Shown here piece after piece: positions 3,733 to 38,344 of a DNA stretch of 39,182 nt. Under the pieces are notes generated by a model. The model had not been told where the DNA came from and ran no database searches. It saw only the letters and a program-made list of their open reading frames with translations. Made by a program: the position numbers and the translations under genes. This stretch comes from a virus: the IMG/VR virus record IMGVR_UViG_3300000385_000011, positions 1 through 39,182 of that record. One strand, written 5' to 3'. Every line of letters begins with the position of its first letter. Positions within the stretch are counted from its first letter, which is position 1.

Positions 3733-5520
3733 ATGGACGTTGCATCGCTTGTTGAAAAGTTCAATGAGGCCGAGCGTGTAACGTATGACGCCCGCCGTGA
3801 AGCAGAACGGGCCCGCGATTATTGGGACGGGAAGCAGTTGACAGAGGCGGAAATGTCGGCGCTGAAAAAGCGCGGTCAGCCGCCCATTGTTATCAACCGT
3901 GTCCGCCGCAAGATTCAGTGGCTGAAAGGGCTGGAAGTCAAGCAGCGCACAGACCCCAAGGCGTTCCCGCGCACGCCGGAGGATGAAGGCGCGGCGGAAT
4001 CGGCAACGGACGCGCTGCGCTTCGTGGCGGATAATACGCAGTTCGACCGCAAGAAATCTTCGGTTTGGGAAAACATGCTGGTTGAGGGGTTCGGCGGCGT
4101 GGAGATTGTCCACCGGGCCAAGCGTGACGGCGACGTGGATATTGTCGTAAATCATTACCCGTGGGACCGGCTGTTTTACGACCCATATAGCCGGGCGCAT
4201 GACTTTTCCGACGCGCGGTATCTCGGCGCGGTTGTCTGGCAGGACAAGGAAGACCTGCTGGAAGAGCACCCGGACAAGAAGCGGATCATCGAACAGATGC
4301 AGACGGACGCGCAATCGCTGTCCGACACTTACGACGACCGCCCCAGTGGCGGGCTTTGGTATGACGCCAAGCGCAATCGCGTCCGTGTCGTGCTGATGTG
4401 GTATAACAAGGCTGGCGTCTGGTATTGGTGCAAGTTTGTCGAAAAGGACAAGCTGGGCGAAGGTGAGAGTCCGTATGTGGACGAATACGGCGAAAGCGTT
4501 TGCCCGCTTATCATGCAGTCGCTTTACGTTGGGCGGGATAACGACCGATACGGGATTGTGCGGGATATGTTCGGCCCGCAGGACGAGGTGAACAAGCGCC
4601 GCTCCAAGGCGCTGCACCTGATGACTATGCGGCAGGTCCGTGTTGCGCCGGGCGCTGCGATGAACCGCCGGGAACTGAGCCGCGAACTGGCCCGCCCCGA
4701 CGGCATCGTGGAGGCGGAAGCGGATGACTTCGAGGTGCTGCCGACCGCCGACATGGCGTCGGCTCACGCATCGCTTCTGCAAGAGGCCAAGGCCGAAATT
4801 GACATGATGGGGGCCAACGCGGCCCTTGAAGGCGAAACGGGCGAAAGTTCGTCCGGTCGCGCTGTCCTGGCCCGTCAACAAGGCGGCATGGTGGAAATCG
4901 CGCCGGAAATGGATGAGCTGCGCCACTTCACCCAGCGGTGTTTTGAGGCGTTCTGGCAGCGCATTAAGCAGTTCTGGACCGGCGAGAAATGGGTTCGGAT
5001 TACCGACGACGAGCGCAACACGCGCTTTGCCGGAATCAACCAACCCGTCACCTTTGGGCAGATGCTTGGGCAAATGCCGCCGGAACAAGTGCAGCAGGTG
5101 GCGATGGAAATGCAGCTTCGCCCGAATGACCCGCGCCTGTCTGCCGTTGTGGACGTGCAGAACGATGTGACGCGGATGCAGGTGGATATTATTCTTGAAG
5201 AGGCGCCCGACCGGATTACGCTTGCGGGCGAAACCTTCGAGGCGCTGATGAAATACGGGCAGATCATTCCGCCGGACGTTCTTATCGAGGCTGACCCGAC
5301 GATGCCCGCCAGCAAGAAAGAGAAATTGCTTGAAATGATGCAGCAGCGACAGCCCGGCCCGCAGGAGCAGGCCGAAATGGCGAAGTCGCAGGCTGAACTT
5401 GCGAAGACGCAAGCCGAGATAGTCGAGACCCAGACACAGGCGCAGGAAAACTACGCCGATGCGGTCAAGACTATGCAGGAAGCTCAGTTGGAGCGCCTGC
5501 AAGCCGCCGCCGGGCTTTAA
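3733..5520 (+). CDS. Portal protein (P22 gp1-like)
   Basis: A 595-aa portal, the dodecameric ring at the vertex through which DNA enters and leaves. The conserved early segment around INRVRRKIQWLKGLEVKQRTD (residues about 55-75) and the following region typify P22-type portals. The C-terminus (about 540-590) is a Gln/Ala/Glu-rich coiled coil, compatible with the barrel of P22-like portals. The gene lies between terminase and scaffold, the standard order. A very long minus-strand open frame over it is a codon-bias shadow. Confidence 0.93.
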   Translation: MDVASLVEKFNEAERVTYDARREAERARDYWDGKQLTEAEMSALKKRGQPPIVINRVRRKIQWLKGLEVKQRTDPKAFPRTPEDEGAAESATDALRFVADNTQFDRKKSSVWENMLVEGFGGVEIVHRAKRDGDVDIVVNHYPWDRLFYDPYSRAHDFSDARYLGAVVWQDKEDLLEEHPDKKRIIEQMQTDAQSLSDTYDDRPSGGLWYDAKRNRVRVVLMWYNKAGVWYWCKFVEKDKLGEGESPYVDEYGESVCPLIMQSLYVGRDNDRYGIVRDMFGPQDEVNKRRSKALHLMTMRQVRVAPGAAMNRRELSRELARPDGIVEAEADDFEVLPTADMASAHASLLQEAKAEIDMMGANAALEGETGESSSGRAVLARQQGGMVEIAPEMDELRHFTQRCFEAFWQRIKQFWTGEKWVRITDDERNTRFAGINQPVTFGQMLGQMPPEQVQQVAMEMQLRPNDPRLSAVVDVQNDVTRMQVDIILEEAPDRITLAGETFEALMKYGQIIPPDVLIEADPTMPASKKEKLLEMMQQRQPGPQEQAEMAKSQAELAKTQAEIVETQTQAQENYADAVKTMQEAQLERLQAAAGL

Positions 5521-25496: not shown

Positions 25497-25678
25497 GTTT
25501 TACACCGCGCCTTCTAAGCCATTGATTTCTTATGCGGCACCCTTGCCGTGTTTTACAGCGTAAGCCACTGACGCTGCGGCGTTTACGCAGTCCCTCCGGG
25601 CCTACCATGTCAATCCTAAGCGGTTGATAATGCGTCATTATTCCGCCCGTTTTACACTTTGGCTGGCGGGTTTTACAC
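25497..25678. other. attP: Candidate attP with tRNA-like core and integrase arm sites
   Basis: AGTCCCTCCGGGCCTACCA at 25589-25607 looks like the 3' end of a tRNA gene (T-arm strand, acceptor, CCA), a common phage attachment core. Copies of GTTTTACA flank it at 25497, 25550, 25649 and 25670, as expected for integrase arm sites. Two of the four lie within the integrase 3' end. The non-coding stretch 25469-25637 thus has a clear purpose. Identity as attP is inferred from layout; the chromosomal partner is unknown. Confidence 0.6.
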
Positions 25679-26699
25679 TTTCTGTTCCCTGTCCACCCCC
25701 TAGCAGAGCTCGCCGACGATCCGCCGCGCGGGTGTAGTGTTCGACTTCATCCAGTGTTACATGACCGCCCCAAGACTGGATTTGGTGCGCTGTTGCGCCC
25801 GCTTCTGCCAGCTCAATGAGGCGAGACTTTCGCAGCCCGTGGGCGCTTCTTTCAATGCCTGCTTTTCGGGCCGCATCGGAAATCAGATTGCCGAGGCCCT
25901 TGATGGTTCGAGGCTTGCCGTAGGACGTTTCAAGAAACAGGAAGCTTGATCCGACCGCCCCTTTCGCAATGTCCTGGTCCGGCTTCATGTCGGCAGCGAA
26001 TGCGGGCAAGACTTCCCACGGCACATAGGCGATGCCGCCGGTTTTGCTTTGCTTGAACGCCATCAGCCCGTCGCGGCCCACCATTCCACGGTTGAGCGTG
26101 ACGGCATCGTTTGTGCGCGCGCCTGTCCAGAACAGCAGTTCCATCGCTGCGCGCTGGCCGGTGCCGATGGCCCACCTTTCCCTGAACGCCTCGATATGAT
26201 CGCGTGACCACGGCAGAAATCCGTCTGTCTTTGGCGGGCGTTTGCGCTTTACGCCGTCTGACGGGTCAACGTGGATCAGGCCAGCTTCAACGGCCCAGCC
26301 GCACAGTTTCCGCCATGCCTTCAGGCGCTTGTTCGCCTTGTGCGGTGGCAGCTTTGAAATATCCAAACGAATGTAATCCGGCTTTAGGTGGGCCAACATG
26401 CCCGTGCCGTATTTGTCGCGCGCGTCGTCAAGGTGCATGCGGATCATTTGCCTGTAGCCCTGAGACAGCGACAGGAAGGCGTCAGAGCGCAAGAACGCCT
26501 CGCAGGCGGCGTCAATCGTGCCGGTCCTTGCGCGGGGCCGTGCGCCCCCTTTCTGTTCTTCTGACAGCCACGCAGCGATGAAGTCGGGGTGGTTTTCCGG
26601 CAGATCAGGCAACTTGGCCCGCGTCTTCCGATGGTAGCGGTAGACGCGCCCGCCGCGCGTTATGCGGTGGACGTTCTTCATCTGAACAGGGCCGCGCAT
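25638..26699 (-). CDS. int: Tyrosine integrase
   Basis: A 353-aa site-specific recombinase for integration and excision. All catalytic residues are present: R195 (TGARTND), K219 (QSKTGG), H287 and R290 (HGLRK), H313 (GGH) and Y322 (EHYTR). An N-terminal arm-binding and SAM-like core-binding part precede the catalytic domain. The start at 26699 has GGAGGA about ten bases upstream; a second ATG at 26681 overlaps the preceding stop. The C-terminus repeats SVKPASQSVKRAE because it runs through two arm-site copies. Confidence 0.93.
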   Translation of the reverse strand: MRGPVQMKNVHRITRGGRVYRYHRKTRAKLPDLPENHPDFIAAWLSEEQKGGARPRARTGTIDAACEAFLRSDAFLSLSQGYRQMIRMHLDDARDKYGTGMLAHLKPDYIRLDISKLPPHKANKRLKAWRKLCGWAVEAGLIHVDPSDGVKRKRPPKTDGFLPWSRDHIEAFRERWAIGTGQRAAMELLFWTGARTNDAVTLNRGMVGRDGLMAFKQSKTGGIAYVPWEVLPAFAADMKPDQDIAKGAVGSSFLFLETSYGKPRTIKGLGNLISDAARKAGIERSAHGLRKSRLIELAEAGATAHQIQSWGGHVTLDEVEHYTRAADRRRALLGGGQGTESVKPASQSVKRAE

Positions 26700-33619: not shown

Positions 33620-34143
33620 TAGCAGCTTACAAGAAACAGGCCATTGATCGCATGGGTGGACGCCTTCGGGCCGCGTTGAAGCGGTGCGACCCGCCGCTGT
33701 CCGACAGCCTGCGGCTTATGGCGGTGCAGCTTGTCAAGGAAGCCTTGGTGAAAGGCTACCAGGGGCACACAGAAGTCCACCCCGGCCTCAAGAAGCTGGC
33801 CCAATGGGGCAAATGCAGCGAGCGGCAGGCTCGGCGCAATATGCGGGTATTGGAGAACTGGGGATTGGCCGTTCCCGTTGGCGGCGGGAAGGCGCGGCGC
33901 GCGACAGAATACTGGATTGAGCCGGAGTCGATTATCCGCGTGATGATGACCTTGGGCGCAAATCCGCACCCCGATCTGATGGCCGAAATCCGCGACTTTC
34001 AGGCGGACATCAGGGGGGACATCAGGGGGGACATCAGGGGGGACATTTCAGGCGGACATTTGGCCGGACATATGTCCCCCCGTTATATAGAGAGTGGGAA
34101 CGTTACGCAGAGCCTTCGGCGTGGAGGCAATTGCGATGTTTGA
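33616..34143 (+). CDS. Replication initiator candidate (winged HTH, O-like)
   Basis: A 175-aa protein. LKKLAQWGKCSERQARRNMRVLENWGLAV (about 55-83) is a winged helix-turn-helix of the replication-protein O type. Residues about 130-157 are made of DIRG repeats encoded by the iteron array at 34005-34077, just as lambda O holds its iterons. A helicase and a primase follow, supporting an initiator. It overlaps the helicase start. Confidence 0.75.
   Translation: MIAAYKKQAIDRMGGRLRAALKRCDPPLSDSLRLMAVQLVKEALVKGYQGHTEVHPGLKKLAQWGKCSERQARRNMRVLENWGLAVPVGGGKARRATEYWIEPESIIRVMMTLGANPHPDLMAEIRDFQADIRGDIRGDIRGDISGGHLAGHMSPRYIESGNVTQSLRRGGNCDV
34005..34077. repeat. ori: Iteron array, candidate replication origin
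   Basis: Six GGACAT units start at 34005, 34017, 34029, 34041, 34054 and 34066, 12-13 bases apart. The first three are identical GGACATCAGGGG. The last forms the perfect palindrome GGACATATGTCC (34066-34077). An AT-richer stretch (GTTATATAGAGAG) follows. This matches the plan of a lambda-type origin inside the initiator gene. Confidence 0.65.
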
Positions 34144-35611
34144 CCTCTTTTCCCATCCAGAGAAAAAAACCCCTCGGGAACACCAGACCCGCACCATTGA
34201 CCTGATCCGTCAATCTCTTGGCAAGGGAAACAGGAAGGTGGTTGCCCAACTGCCCACCGGGGCGGGCAAGACGTTCATGGCTTCCATGATTGCCAACATG
34301 GCCCTAGCCAAAGGGAATAGTGTCACCTTCACGGTTCCCGCGCTGTCGCTGATCGACCAGACGGTTGAGGCGTTCGAGGCCGAAGGGCTGGGGCCTATCG
34401 GCGTCATCCAAGCCAACCACCCGCGCACCGACTACGGCGCACCCGTGCAGGTAGCGAGTGTTCAAACTTTGGCCAGGAGAAGCGCATGGCCCGACACGCC
34501 GCTCGTCATTGTCGACGAGTGCCACGTCCGCAACAAGGCAATCCTGCGCTGGATGGAGAAGGCACCGAGCACTCGCTTTATCGGGCTGACGGCGACGCCT
34601 TGGCGCAGGGGAATGGGCGCCGAGTGGGATGACCTGGTTATCGGTTCCACCATCGGGGAGCTGATCGGCGCGGGGCTGCTTTCCGACTTCCGCGTGTATG
34701 CGCCGGCCCACCCCGATCTGACGGGCGTTAAGACGACGGCGGGCGATTACAACCAAGGCCAGCTTTCCGAGGCGATGCAGCAGGGCACGATGGTTGCCGA
34801 CGTTGTGGAGACGTGGCTTGCCCGTGGTGAGGATCGGCCCACGCTTTGCTTTGGCGTTGACCGCGCCCACGCAAAGCACCTGCAAGAACGGTTCGAGGCG
34901 GCGGGTGTGCCCACGGGCTACGTGGACAGCTACACCGACCCGATAGAGCGCAAACTGGTTCAAGCCCGTTTCGAGCGCGGTGAAATCAGGGTTGTCTGCA
35001 ACGTGGGGTGCCTGACGACCGGCGTGGATTGGGACGTGCGCTGCATCATCCTGGCCCGGCCCACCAAGTCCGAAATGCTCTACGTCCAGATGATTGGCCG
35101 GGGGCTGCGGACGGCAAACGGCAAGGACGACTGCCTAATCCTCGATCACGCCGACAACACCCTGCGCATGGGCTTTGTCACAGACATTCACCACGACCAG
35201 CTAGACGACGGCGAGCGCCGCCAGCAGGCGCAGGAGCGCAAGGAACCGCTGCCGAAGGAGTGCGGCAAGTGCGCTTTCGTAAAACCGCCGAAGGCCCGTG
35301 TGTGCCCAAATTGCGGGCATGAGGCGCAACCGCCGAAGGGCGAGCGCGAAACGCTGGACGGTGAGCTAGTCGAGGTTACGGGCAAGCGCCGGAAATACAC
35401 CAAGGCCGAAAAGCAGGAGTTCTATTCCGGGCTTATCCAAATCGCGGTTGAGCGGGGCAGGGCCGATGGCTGGGTGGCCCACACCTACCGCGAAAAGTTC
35501 GGCGTTTGGCCGAAGGGGCTGGACCGGGTTCGGACTGAGCCGACCGACGAGGTGCGCCGGTTCGTCAAGGCCAAGGACATTCGGTTTGCGAAAAGGAGGC
35601 GGGCGGCATGA
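34136..35611 (+). CDS. SF2 DEAD/DEAH-type helicase
   Basis: A 491-aa helicase. Walker A LPTGAGKT (39-46), VDECH (126-130), TATPWRR and QMIGRGLRT mark motifs I, II, III and VI. A C-terminal CGKC...CPNC zinc ribbon follows (about 382-405). It unwinds DNA at the fork or origin. ATG 34136 has GGAGG eight bases upstream and overlaps the initiator. Neighbour primase suggests a replisome pair. Confidence 0.92.
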   Translation: MFDLFSHPEKKTPREHQTRTIDLIRQSLGKGNRKVVAQLPTGAGKTFMASMIANMALAKGNSVTFTVPALSLIDQTVEAFEAEGLGPIGVIQANHPRTDYGAPVQVASVQTLARRSAWPDTPLVIVDECHVRNKAILRWMEKAPSTRFIGLTATPWRRGMGAEWDDLVIGSTIGELIGAGLLSDFRVYAPAHPDLTGVKTTAGDYNQGQLSEAMQQGTMVADVVETWLARGEDRPTLCFGVDRAHAKHLQERFEAAGVPTGYVDSYTDPIERKLVQARFERGEIRVVCNVGCLTTGVDWDVRCIILARPTKSEMLYVQMIGRGLRTANGKDDCLILDHADNTLRMGFVTDIHHDQLDDGERRQQAQERKEPLPKECGKCAFVKPPKARVCPNCGHEAQPPKGERETLDGELVEVTGKRRKYTKAEKQEFYSGLIQIAVERGRADGWVAHTYREKFGVWPKGLDRVRTEPTDEVRRFVKAKDIRFAKRRRAA

Positions 35612-36555
35612 GCGACGTGAAGAACGAGGCGCGGTCCAAGTGGCGCGGCATTCTTATGACGCTGGGCATCCCCGAAAAGCACCTGAACGGGCGGCACGGG
35701 CCGTGCCCCATGTGCGGCGGAACTGACCGCTTCCGCTTCGACAACAAGGAAGGCAACGGGACGTTCTACTGCAACCAGTGCGGGGCGGGCGACGGTATCA
35801 GCCTGGCCATGAAGTTCCGGGGCTGGGACTTCAAGGAAGCCGCCAAGGAAATCCGCAAGGTCATCGGCACCGCGCCGGTCGAAAAGTCGCGCCCGGAGAT
35901 GACCGAGGAAAAGCGCCGCCAAATGCTGCGCGACCTCTACAAAGGATCGCGCCCGGTGCAGGCGGGCGACGAAGTGGACAGATACCTGACTGGCCGGGGT
36001 ATGGGTGAGAAGGTCTACCCCGAGGCCCTGCGTTTTCACCCTAACGCGCGTTTCAGCCGCGACCAGTCATTCCCCACGATGCTGGCAATAATCAGCGACG
36101 TGACGGGCAAGCCGGTCACGATGCATCGCACCTTCCTGTCAGATGGACAGAAAGCGCCCGTGGACAGCCCGCGCAAGATCGTGCCGGGGGAACTGCCCAA
36201 CGGGGCGTGTGTGCGCCTTGGCGGCGTCGTGAATGGCCGTGTGCAGGCATCCATCGGAATAGCCGAGGGCATCGAGACTGCGCTGGCCGCAATGCAGACA
36301 TACGACCTGCCCGTGTGGGCGGCGATTAACGCCACGATGCTGGAAAAGTGGGAACCGCCCGCAGGCGTCGAGGAAGTCACGATATTCGCGGACAACGACC
36401 GCAAGTTCGCAGGGCAGAAGGCGGCTTACTGCCTCGCCCACCGCCTGAGCGCCAAGGGGCTGACGGTCTACGTCAAGCTGCCGGAAGTGCCGGGCACCGA
36501 TTTTGCAGACATTCCGTTTCCAGCAGCAGGAGGAAGCAATGAAGAAGCAGCATGA
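35608..36555 (+). CDS. DNA primase (zinc ribbon plus Toprim)
   Basis: A 315-aa primase. The zinc ribbon is CPMC (33-36) and CNQC (55-58). The Toprim core has IAEGIETALAA (E220) and IFADND (D262, D264). This is the DnaG/P4-like plan in short form, with no helicase domain; the SF2 helicase beside it would supply that. It overlaps the helicase stop by four bases. Confidence 0.92.
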   Translation: MSDVKNEARSKWRGILMTLGIPEKHLNGRHGPCPMCGGTDRFRFDNKEGNGTFYCNQCGAGDGISLAMKFRGWDFKEAAKEIRKVIGTAPVEKSRPEMTEEKRRQMLRDLYKGSRPVQAGDEVDRYLTGRGMGEKVYPEALRFHPNARFSRDQSFPTMLAIISDVTGKPVTMHRTFLSDGQKAPVDSPRKIVPGELPNGACVRLGGVVNGRVQASIGIAEGIETALAAMQTYDLPVWAAINATMLEKWEPPAGVEEVTIFADNDRKFAGQKAAYCLAHRLSAKGLTVYVKLPEVPGTDFADIPFPAAGGSNEEAA

Positions 36556-37414: not shown

Positions 37415-37583
37415 GGAATGGCAAGAGATACAGGCCAACAAGTTAGAGCAGGCGTGGACGCGGATCGCCACGCTGGAAAGGCGTCTCGCAGCGGCGAACA
37501 AGCGCAACGCCGACCTGCAAAGGCTGCTGGACCAGGAGCGGAAGAAAAGCAGCGCGGAAAACCTGTTCAGGGGGCTGGAATGA
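37398..37583 (+). CDS. Coiled-coil protein
   Basis: A 61-aa charged helical protein (LEQAWTRIATLERRLAAANK), nearly all coiled coil. Its stop overlaps the methyltransferase start. Function unknown. Confidence 0.65.
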   Translation: MTKTLEEWQEIQANKLEQAWTRIATLERRLAAANKRNADLQRLLDQERKKSSAENLFRGLE

Positions 37584-38344
37584 TGCTGCGGGTTCTCGAT
37601 TTGTTTAGCGGCATTGGCGGCTTCAGTCTCGGCCTAGAGCGGACGGGCGGGTTCGAGACTGTCGCGTTCTGCGAATACGAGGATTTCCCGCGCCGGGTTT
37701 TGAGAAAGCATTGGCCCAATGTGCCCTGCTTCCCAGACGTGCGCGAACTGAAAGGATCAGACATTGACGGACCAGTTGACGTTATCTGCGGGGGCTTTCC
37801 CTGCCAGGACATTAGCACCAGCGGAAGCGGAGAGGGGCTTGCAGGCGAGCGCTCCGGCCTCTGGTCCGAAATGGAAAGACTGGTTGGCGAAATTCGACCC
37901 CGCTACGTCATCGTGGAGAACAGCCCAAATCTCTTGGCTGGAGGAAACGGCGAATGGTTCGGCCAAGTTCTCGGGGACCTGGCCACGCTCGGGTATGATG
38001 CGGAGTGGCACGTTATACCGGCTTCCGCCGTTGGTGCCCCGCACAGACGAGAGCGAGTCTGGGTTATTGCCTACCCCGCTGGCTTCAGACAACCGGGACA
38101 GGGGCAACTGCTCGATGCCGTCCATTCAAAGGCGGATGACTATCGGGAAGCAGGTGGGCTTGTCGATGCTGTTCAAGCAGGCTCCGTGCCCTTCGTGTGT
38201 CACCGGCATGATGGGCTTCCCAAGCGGCTGGCTGAGGCCGGATTGATGGCCCTAGGCAACGCCGTGGTCCCGCAGATTCCAGAAATGATCGGCCACGCCA
38301 TTCTACGGGCAGAAGCTGAACAGCAGGCAATCGCAGCAGAGTGA
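37580..38344 (+). CDS. C5 cytosine DNA methyltransferase
   Basis: A 254-aa methyltransferase. Motif I DLFSGIGGFSLG (7-18), motif IV GGFPCQDIS with the catalytic Cys75, motif VI ENS (113-115), motif VIII VGAPHRRERV (151-160) and motif X ALGNAVVPQI (224-233) are all present. The stretch between VIII and X is only about 65 residues, so the target-recognition part is very short. It would protect or mark phage DNA. No matching restriction gene is seen. A second frame lies fully inside it. Confidence 0.9.
   Translation: MMLRVLDLFSGIGGFSLGLERTGGFETVAFCEYEDFPRRVLRKHWPNVPCFPDVRELKGSDIDGPVDVICGGFPCQDISTSGSGEGLAGERSGLWSEMERLVGEIRPRYVIVENSPNLLAGGNGEWFGQVLGDLATLGYDAEWHVIPASAVGAPHRRERVWVIAYPAGFRQPGQGQLLDAVHSKADDYREAGGLVDAVQAGSVPFVCHRHDGLPKRLAEAGLMALGNAVVPQIPEMIGHAILRAEAEQQAIAAE
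37764..38246 (+). CDS. Gene nested in the methyltransferase, second frame
   Basis: A 160-aa protein in the +1 frame wholly inside the methyltransferase. It starts TTG (MTDQLTLSAGAFPART), with AAAGGA seven bases before. Segments WKDWLAKFDPATSSWRTAQ, SGTWPRSGMMRSGTLYRLPP, ESGLLPTPLASD and GMMGFPSGW look like a recurrent phage protein family found beside C5 methyltransferases. Both frames carry conserved motifs over the same bases: frame A VGAPHRRERVW, frame B LPPLVPRTDESES. Function unknown. Confidence 0.7.
   Translation: MTDQLTLSAGAFPARTLAPAEAERGLQASAPASGPKWKDWLAKFDPATSSWRTAQISWLEETANGSAKFSGTWPRSGMMRSGTLYRLPPLVPRTDESESGLLPTPLASDNRDRGNCSMPSIQRRMTIGKQVGLSMLFKQAPCPSCVTGMMGFPSGWLRPD

Follow-up and report, generated by a model that had tools for sequence, protein, structure and literature searches.

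A gene nested in the +1 frame of a phage C5 DNA methyltransferase gene and its probable role as the second subunit of the enzyme

In the two-polypeptide C5 methyltransferase M.EcoHK31I (YGGCCR), the gene of the small subunit is nested within that of the large subunit in another frame. To our knowledge, only a small number of long overlaps between genes on the same strand have good support in prokaryotes and their phages. The large subunit of M.EcoHK31I carries motifs I-VIII and X and the small subunit carries motif IX, while the predicted recognition domain was placed in the large subunit (PMC3404938). M.AquI (CYCGRG), also made of two polypeptides, is split after motif VIII; its small subunit holds motif X, and each subunit has a part of the recognition region (PMC3404938). 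In M.HhaI and other single-chain enzymes of the family PF00145, the small domain with motif IX belongs to the same chain as the catalytic fold.

The window, which here means the whole analysed stretch of 39,182 nucleotides (IMG/VR record IMGVR_UViG_3300000385_000011, positions 1 to 39,182), belongs to a temperate tailed phage, and its methyltransferase lies downstream of the replication genes. PHROG matches in the window include an integrase (25638-26699, minus strand), a helicase and a primase (34094-36555, plus strand) and a portal protein (3733-5520, plus strand). The methyltransferase gene (A) and the gene nested in it (B) are laid out as follows.

37580-38344, plus strand: gene A, putative catalytic subunit of a C5 DNA methyltransferase with motifs I-VIII and X and without motif IX, starting at ATG 37580 or 37583
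37751-37756, plus strand: AAAGGA, probable ribosome-binding site of B, seven bases 5' of its TTG
37764-38246, plus strand: gene B, nested in A in the +1 frame, 160 amino acids, phrog_1008 family, with the presumed recognition region and motif IX
37799-37807, plus strand: motif IV of A (PCQ) with the catalytic cysteine, within the overlap (from the sequence; PC is invariant in the alignment)
37916-38071, plus strand: motifs VI-VIII of A (ENS to RERVWVIA), with the N-terminal part of B on the same bases (stop depletion and slowed third positions of A)
38070-38186, plus strand: PTPLASD... region of B, presumed target-recognition region with approximate boundaries (frame-B evolution and exchange between relatives)
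38208-38231, plus strand: motif IX of B, MMGFPSGW (found in frame A of two relatives, L028 and L071, within a full PF00145 match)
38255-38272, plus strand: core of motif X of A, GNAVVP, 3' of the end of B (N227 and P231 invariant or nearly so; A is open up to motif X)

Frame A carries motifs I, IV (PCQ), VI (ENx), VIII and X, of which VIII and X had been named in an initial annotation of this DNA made from its letters alone. That annotation proposed a search with both frames, which assigned A to PF00145 and B to phrog_1008. The PF00145 match of A (7.6e-45) covers only residues 4-168 of 254 and ends after motif VIII, with motif X further on, and motif IX and a recognition domain are absent from A's own chain. 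The recognition region of A is indeed short where B runs, as had been noticed, yet it is not merely short, because A lacks motif IX altogether and B supplies it. B matches phrog_1008 in PHROGs (2.8e-24), as do 70 of 70 aligned B homologues, and matched no family in Pfam and NCBIfam. WPRSGMMRSG, LPPLVPRT and MMGFPSGW, as previously pointed out, are all encoded in frame B, which comprises 160 codons plus a TGA at 38244-38246. In many relatives B begins at an ATG after GAGGT, inside the A codons for 'PEVPxYDD'; this ATG is missing in the window, where the start is TTG 37764, TTG being a weak start codon, and the in-frame TGA at 37749-37751 means that B cannot start earlier. The claim of a nested 160-codon gene in the +1 frame, with TTG seven bases after AAAGGA, is thus borne out by the sequence and the phrog_1008 match, as well as by the stop codons of homologues described below.

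By motif criteria, the window pair is a further case of the M.EcoHK31I-type arrangement, though the need for both proteins is inferred. The motif split is the same, and the gene of the putative small subunit likewise overlaps the large one in another frame. The difference from M.EcoHK31I concerns the region past motif VIII, whose evolution here follows frame B; the placement of the recognition domain in the large subunit of that enzyme is a published prediction and was not taken as defining. M.AquI differs from the window in that motif X of the window lies in A and not in the small subunit, and it resembles instead the staggered loci L003 and L004, where B carries motifs IX and X. With M.HhaI and other single-chain enzymes A has the catalytic fold and motifs I-VIII in common, whereas motif IX of the window is located in another gene and another frame.

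The nested pair recurs widely. A tblastn search with B returned 253 phage records and eight plasmid records, and in every one of about 30 loci first inspected B lay in the +1 frame of a C5 methyltransferase, with identities down to about 30%. When viral loci were picked by A alone, which avoids selection for B, and the best 80 were retained, all 80 had a B match in the +1 frame, and the case that would have refuted B, an intact A with random stops in frame B, was therefore not met in this clade. Since the A query was taken from nested loci and only the best 80 were kept, the result covers one clade and not all C5 methyltransferases. Conversely, A was present in the overlapping register in 88 of 88 loci found through B, and a stand-alone B adjoining A without overlap was not seen among them. 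The earlier suggestion of a recurrent phage family was correct, but its members are not merely near methyltransferases: at all loci examined they overlap one, always in the same register. A scan of genomes with B alone as the query yielded nothing. In an E. coli prophage (PCP07014; L192:1285-2046), a related nested pair is annotated as a pseudogene, and a stop breaks both frames at about the same place. As for annotation, 13 of 16 inspected nested records had only A, three had only B, and none had both.

The division of the motifs is shared by the relatives. In 77 distinct viral loci, the motif IX pattern was found in B in 67 and motif X in A in 73, while motif IX was in A only in one. In L028 and L071, frame A is matched by the B profile too: LNPDWVEWLMGYP lies there inside a full-length PF00145 match. 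In L258, a single chain holds PTP modules together with motifs IX and X, all in one frame. Compared with the common nested layout, L028, L071, L094 and L081 have motif IX or X displaced, either into another frame or into a third open one.

An AlphaFold model of A (pLDDT 84.8) had M.HhaI as its best PDB match, in the catalytic domain; confidence was low beyond motif VIII and was regained in a terminal helix after motif X. B modelled alone was poor (pLDDT 66, pTM 0.31), and neither Foldseek with this model nor a sequence search with B gave a match in PDB, so that the identification of B as a small domain rests on motif IX and position and not on fold. Such an outcome would not be surprising for a domain that depends on its partner.

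Selection in each frame, which the initial annotation had suggested as a check, was assessed from codon positions in 38 independent pairs, position 3 of A being position 2 of B and position 1 of A being position 3 of B in a +1 overlap. Changes per site at positions 1, 2 and 3 of A were 0.168, 0.102 and 0.435 before B, 0.158, 0.079 and 0.264 in the dual zone, and 0.339, 0.187 and 0.157 beyond motif VIII, and the third-position rate of A under B was 0.61 of the upstream rate (95% interval 0.55-0.67). These rates indicate that the third position of A is restrained under B and that the frame-B pattern prevails beyond motif VIII; the alignment there was built from B protein and could be biased somewhat towards B. 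The aligned codons show that both frames are constrained over motifs IV-VIII and that B is the better conserved beyond motif VIII. Between the window and the Sulfitobacter phage phiGT1, for instance, B is 82% identical beyond motif VIII and A is 54% identical over the same bases.

The zone between motif VIII and motif IX is also highly variable, since, of 261 pairs in which A motifs I-VIII are 75-97% identical, 197 had less than 35% identity beyond motif VIII, and B holds from zero to six PTP modules across loci. Judged from these comparisons, the exchanged zone behaves like a specificity region, with recognition itself being inferred. In L004, L029, L077 and L097, up to six tandem 'PTPxAxD' modules are present in B, which recalls the multispecific phage methyltransferases with their recognition domains in tandem. 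Three pairs of loci (L056/L065, L047/L115 and L135/L166) combine catalytic parts of about 90% identity with unrelated recognition zones, an apparent cassette exchange.

Our preferred explanation, to which we give a probability of roughly 85%, is that A and B are two subunits of one DNA (cytosine-5) methyltransferase, their association and joint activity being inferred. A would be the catalytic large domain, with motifs I-VIII closed by motif X, and would hold the cofactor and the catalytic cysteine. B, presumably translated from its own TTG at 37764 inside A, would be the small domain with the target-recognition region and motif IX, and its N-terminal part is written over motifs IV-VIII of A. 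The two proteins are presumed to associate and so rebuild the enzyme, in which B would set the sequence to be methylated, and the temperate phage probably modifies its own DNA with it, one possible benefit being protection from host restriction, although specificity, physical contact and purpose are all inferences. The nested state may go back to a single-chain ancestor in which a pair of compensating frame changes flanked the recognition region; the four loci with frame-shifted motifs fit such exchanges, although they could include assembly errors. The poor B model, the weak TTG start and the single-chain relatives whose B is without motif IX speak against the two-subunit explanation.

Those relatives bear on the alternative that survives best, in which B is translated as a regulatory or accessory protein (an activator, an inhibitor or a protein with its own role) and not the recognition half, and A works alone. 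Among genome loci, single-chain C5 methyltransferases with an LQGFPD motif IX of their own (streptococci, a lactococcus, Lachnospiraceae and actinobacteria) likewise have the N-terminal part of B as an open, conserved frame over motifs V-VIII. B of these loci terminates in 'SDILE...YFLS', matches phrog_16143 and is without motif IX, pointing to a role in the wider family beyond recognition. For the window, however, an accessory protein beside a self-sufficient A appears unlikely, because A lacks motif IX, the recognition zone is better conserved in B, and a C5 enzyme that has neither motif IX nor a recognition domain would not be expected to function by itself. The initial annotation had offered an accessory or specificity subunit, or an inhibitor, as roles of B; the former option is supported by motif IX in B and by frame-B conservation beyond motif VIII, its activity remaining inferred, while the inhibitor finds no support in split members like the window.

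Because the single-chain relatives carry B without motif IX, the common part of B must have a function other than supplying this motif, and B is not merely a displaced small domain. The common part may be a general partner, and the N-termini of the two B types may also be alike merely because A is alike. Just beyond motif VIII of the single-chain type, B third positions changed at 0.336, against 0.151 and 0.144 at the other positions, in only five pairs. A +1 B was observed over single-chain enzymes in L229, L232, L239, L254, L257, L261 and L263, and further in L265, L266, L269, L270, L271 and L272. L253 has no +1 B; its YFLSPNAATGILRR (YFLS) segment lies in the C-terminal 60 codons of A, fused to the C-terminus of A. 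Both phrog_1008, the B type of the window, and phrog_16143, the other B type overlapping single-chain enzymes, are labelled 'DNA methyltransferase' in PHROGs, labels that omit the overlap and the subunit role.

A joining of A and B by ribosomal frameshifting after motif VIII into one fusion chain would account for why the arrangement resembles a single-chain enzyme whose middle part has switched frame, and for the motif X of B in the staggered loci L003 and L004. This is nevertheless highly improbable, as B has a start of its own (a ribosome-site match of at least four bases accompanies a B-frame start in 129 of 171 loci, versus 51 in a control frame), the conserved N-terminal part of B lies upstream of any shift site, and A also needs to be read in its own frame through to motif X. 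Beyond motif VIII, frame A contained no stops against 397 expected from B-synonymous shuffles of 157 loci; only loci with an A frame extending to motif X were included, which in part accounts for the zero. These 157 make up most of the roughly 171 distinct loci, of which about 18 would be expected to be open. The A frame is thus kept open beyond motif VIII, implying that A is read through to motif X, and a programmed frameshift fusion was disfavoured on these grounds.

Whether B is coding at all was judged with synonymous shuffles that preserve protein A and its codon usage, in regions anchored on A only, within 79 viral loci that had themselves been picked by A alone. Stops in the +1 frame were 196 observed against 225 expected over motifs I-IV upstream of B, 8 against 53 over motifs IV-VI and 1 against 71 over motifs VI-VIII under B; the depletion was confined to the +1 frame and to the region covered by B, and the +2 frame was not depleted. 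As a control, PF00145 loci were sampled from genomes of three groups and divided into those with and without a B match. The 87 loci without a match had 254 stops against 239 expected, with a median open span of 29 codons, showing that the stop test is calibrated, while the 18 with a match, one of them doubtful (L278, 19.7 bits), had none against 16.3, with an open span of about 200. The overlapped N-terminal part of B outscored all 60 shuffles in 66 of 79 viral and 48 of 79 genome loci and in none of 84 controls. The B profile score exceeded every shuffle in 76 of 79 loci; the absence of stops in this comparison is partly by construction, since the B domain sits in a stop-free frame, and the unbiased form of the stop test is the count in the A-anchored regions. 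Even shuffled window sequences reach about 83 bits with the B profile, showing that such scores are inflated by conservation of A, and B matches were therefore judged against shuffles and not by E-value. The homologous sequences confirm frame B as a genuine conserved coding frame, which the window alone, weak on openness, could not settle: only 1.45 stops were expected in its +1 frame and 16% of its synonymous shuffles were also open. A chance open frame, a by-product of the conserved A protein and of base composition, could draw on these shuffles, but it is rejected by the stop depletion, the shuffle scores, the calibrated controls and the changes beyond motif VIII, which follow B codons.

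We found no paper on phrog_1008, on nested methyltransferase genes of this kind or on the breadth of the arrangement, in a search that did not cover the subscription literature and REBASE. The nested arrangement occurs in viral, plasmid and chromosomal loci across many bacterial phyla; it is recurrent, calibrated against a control set and offers a testable mechanism. Should B be the specificity half, it is missing from the records of many phage methyltransferases, and cloning of A without B can be expected to yield an inactive enzyme. More tentatively, and with slightly less than even confidence, we suggest that the overprinted gene may be a general partner of a large C5 methyltransferase clade wider than the split enzymes, with its N-terminal part, over motifs IV-VIII, as a possible conserved docking piece and the part after motif VIII carried in either frame. 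That segment would consist of recognition modules and motif IX in split enzymes, or of 'SDILE...YFLS' beside a complete enzyme. If this is true, new specificities could arise by the exchange of cassettes between the two overlapping frames.
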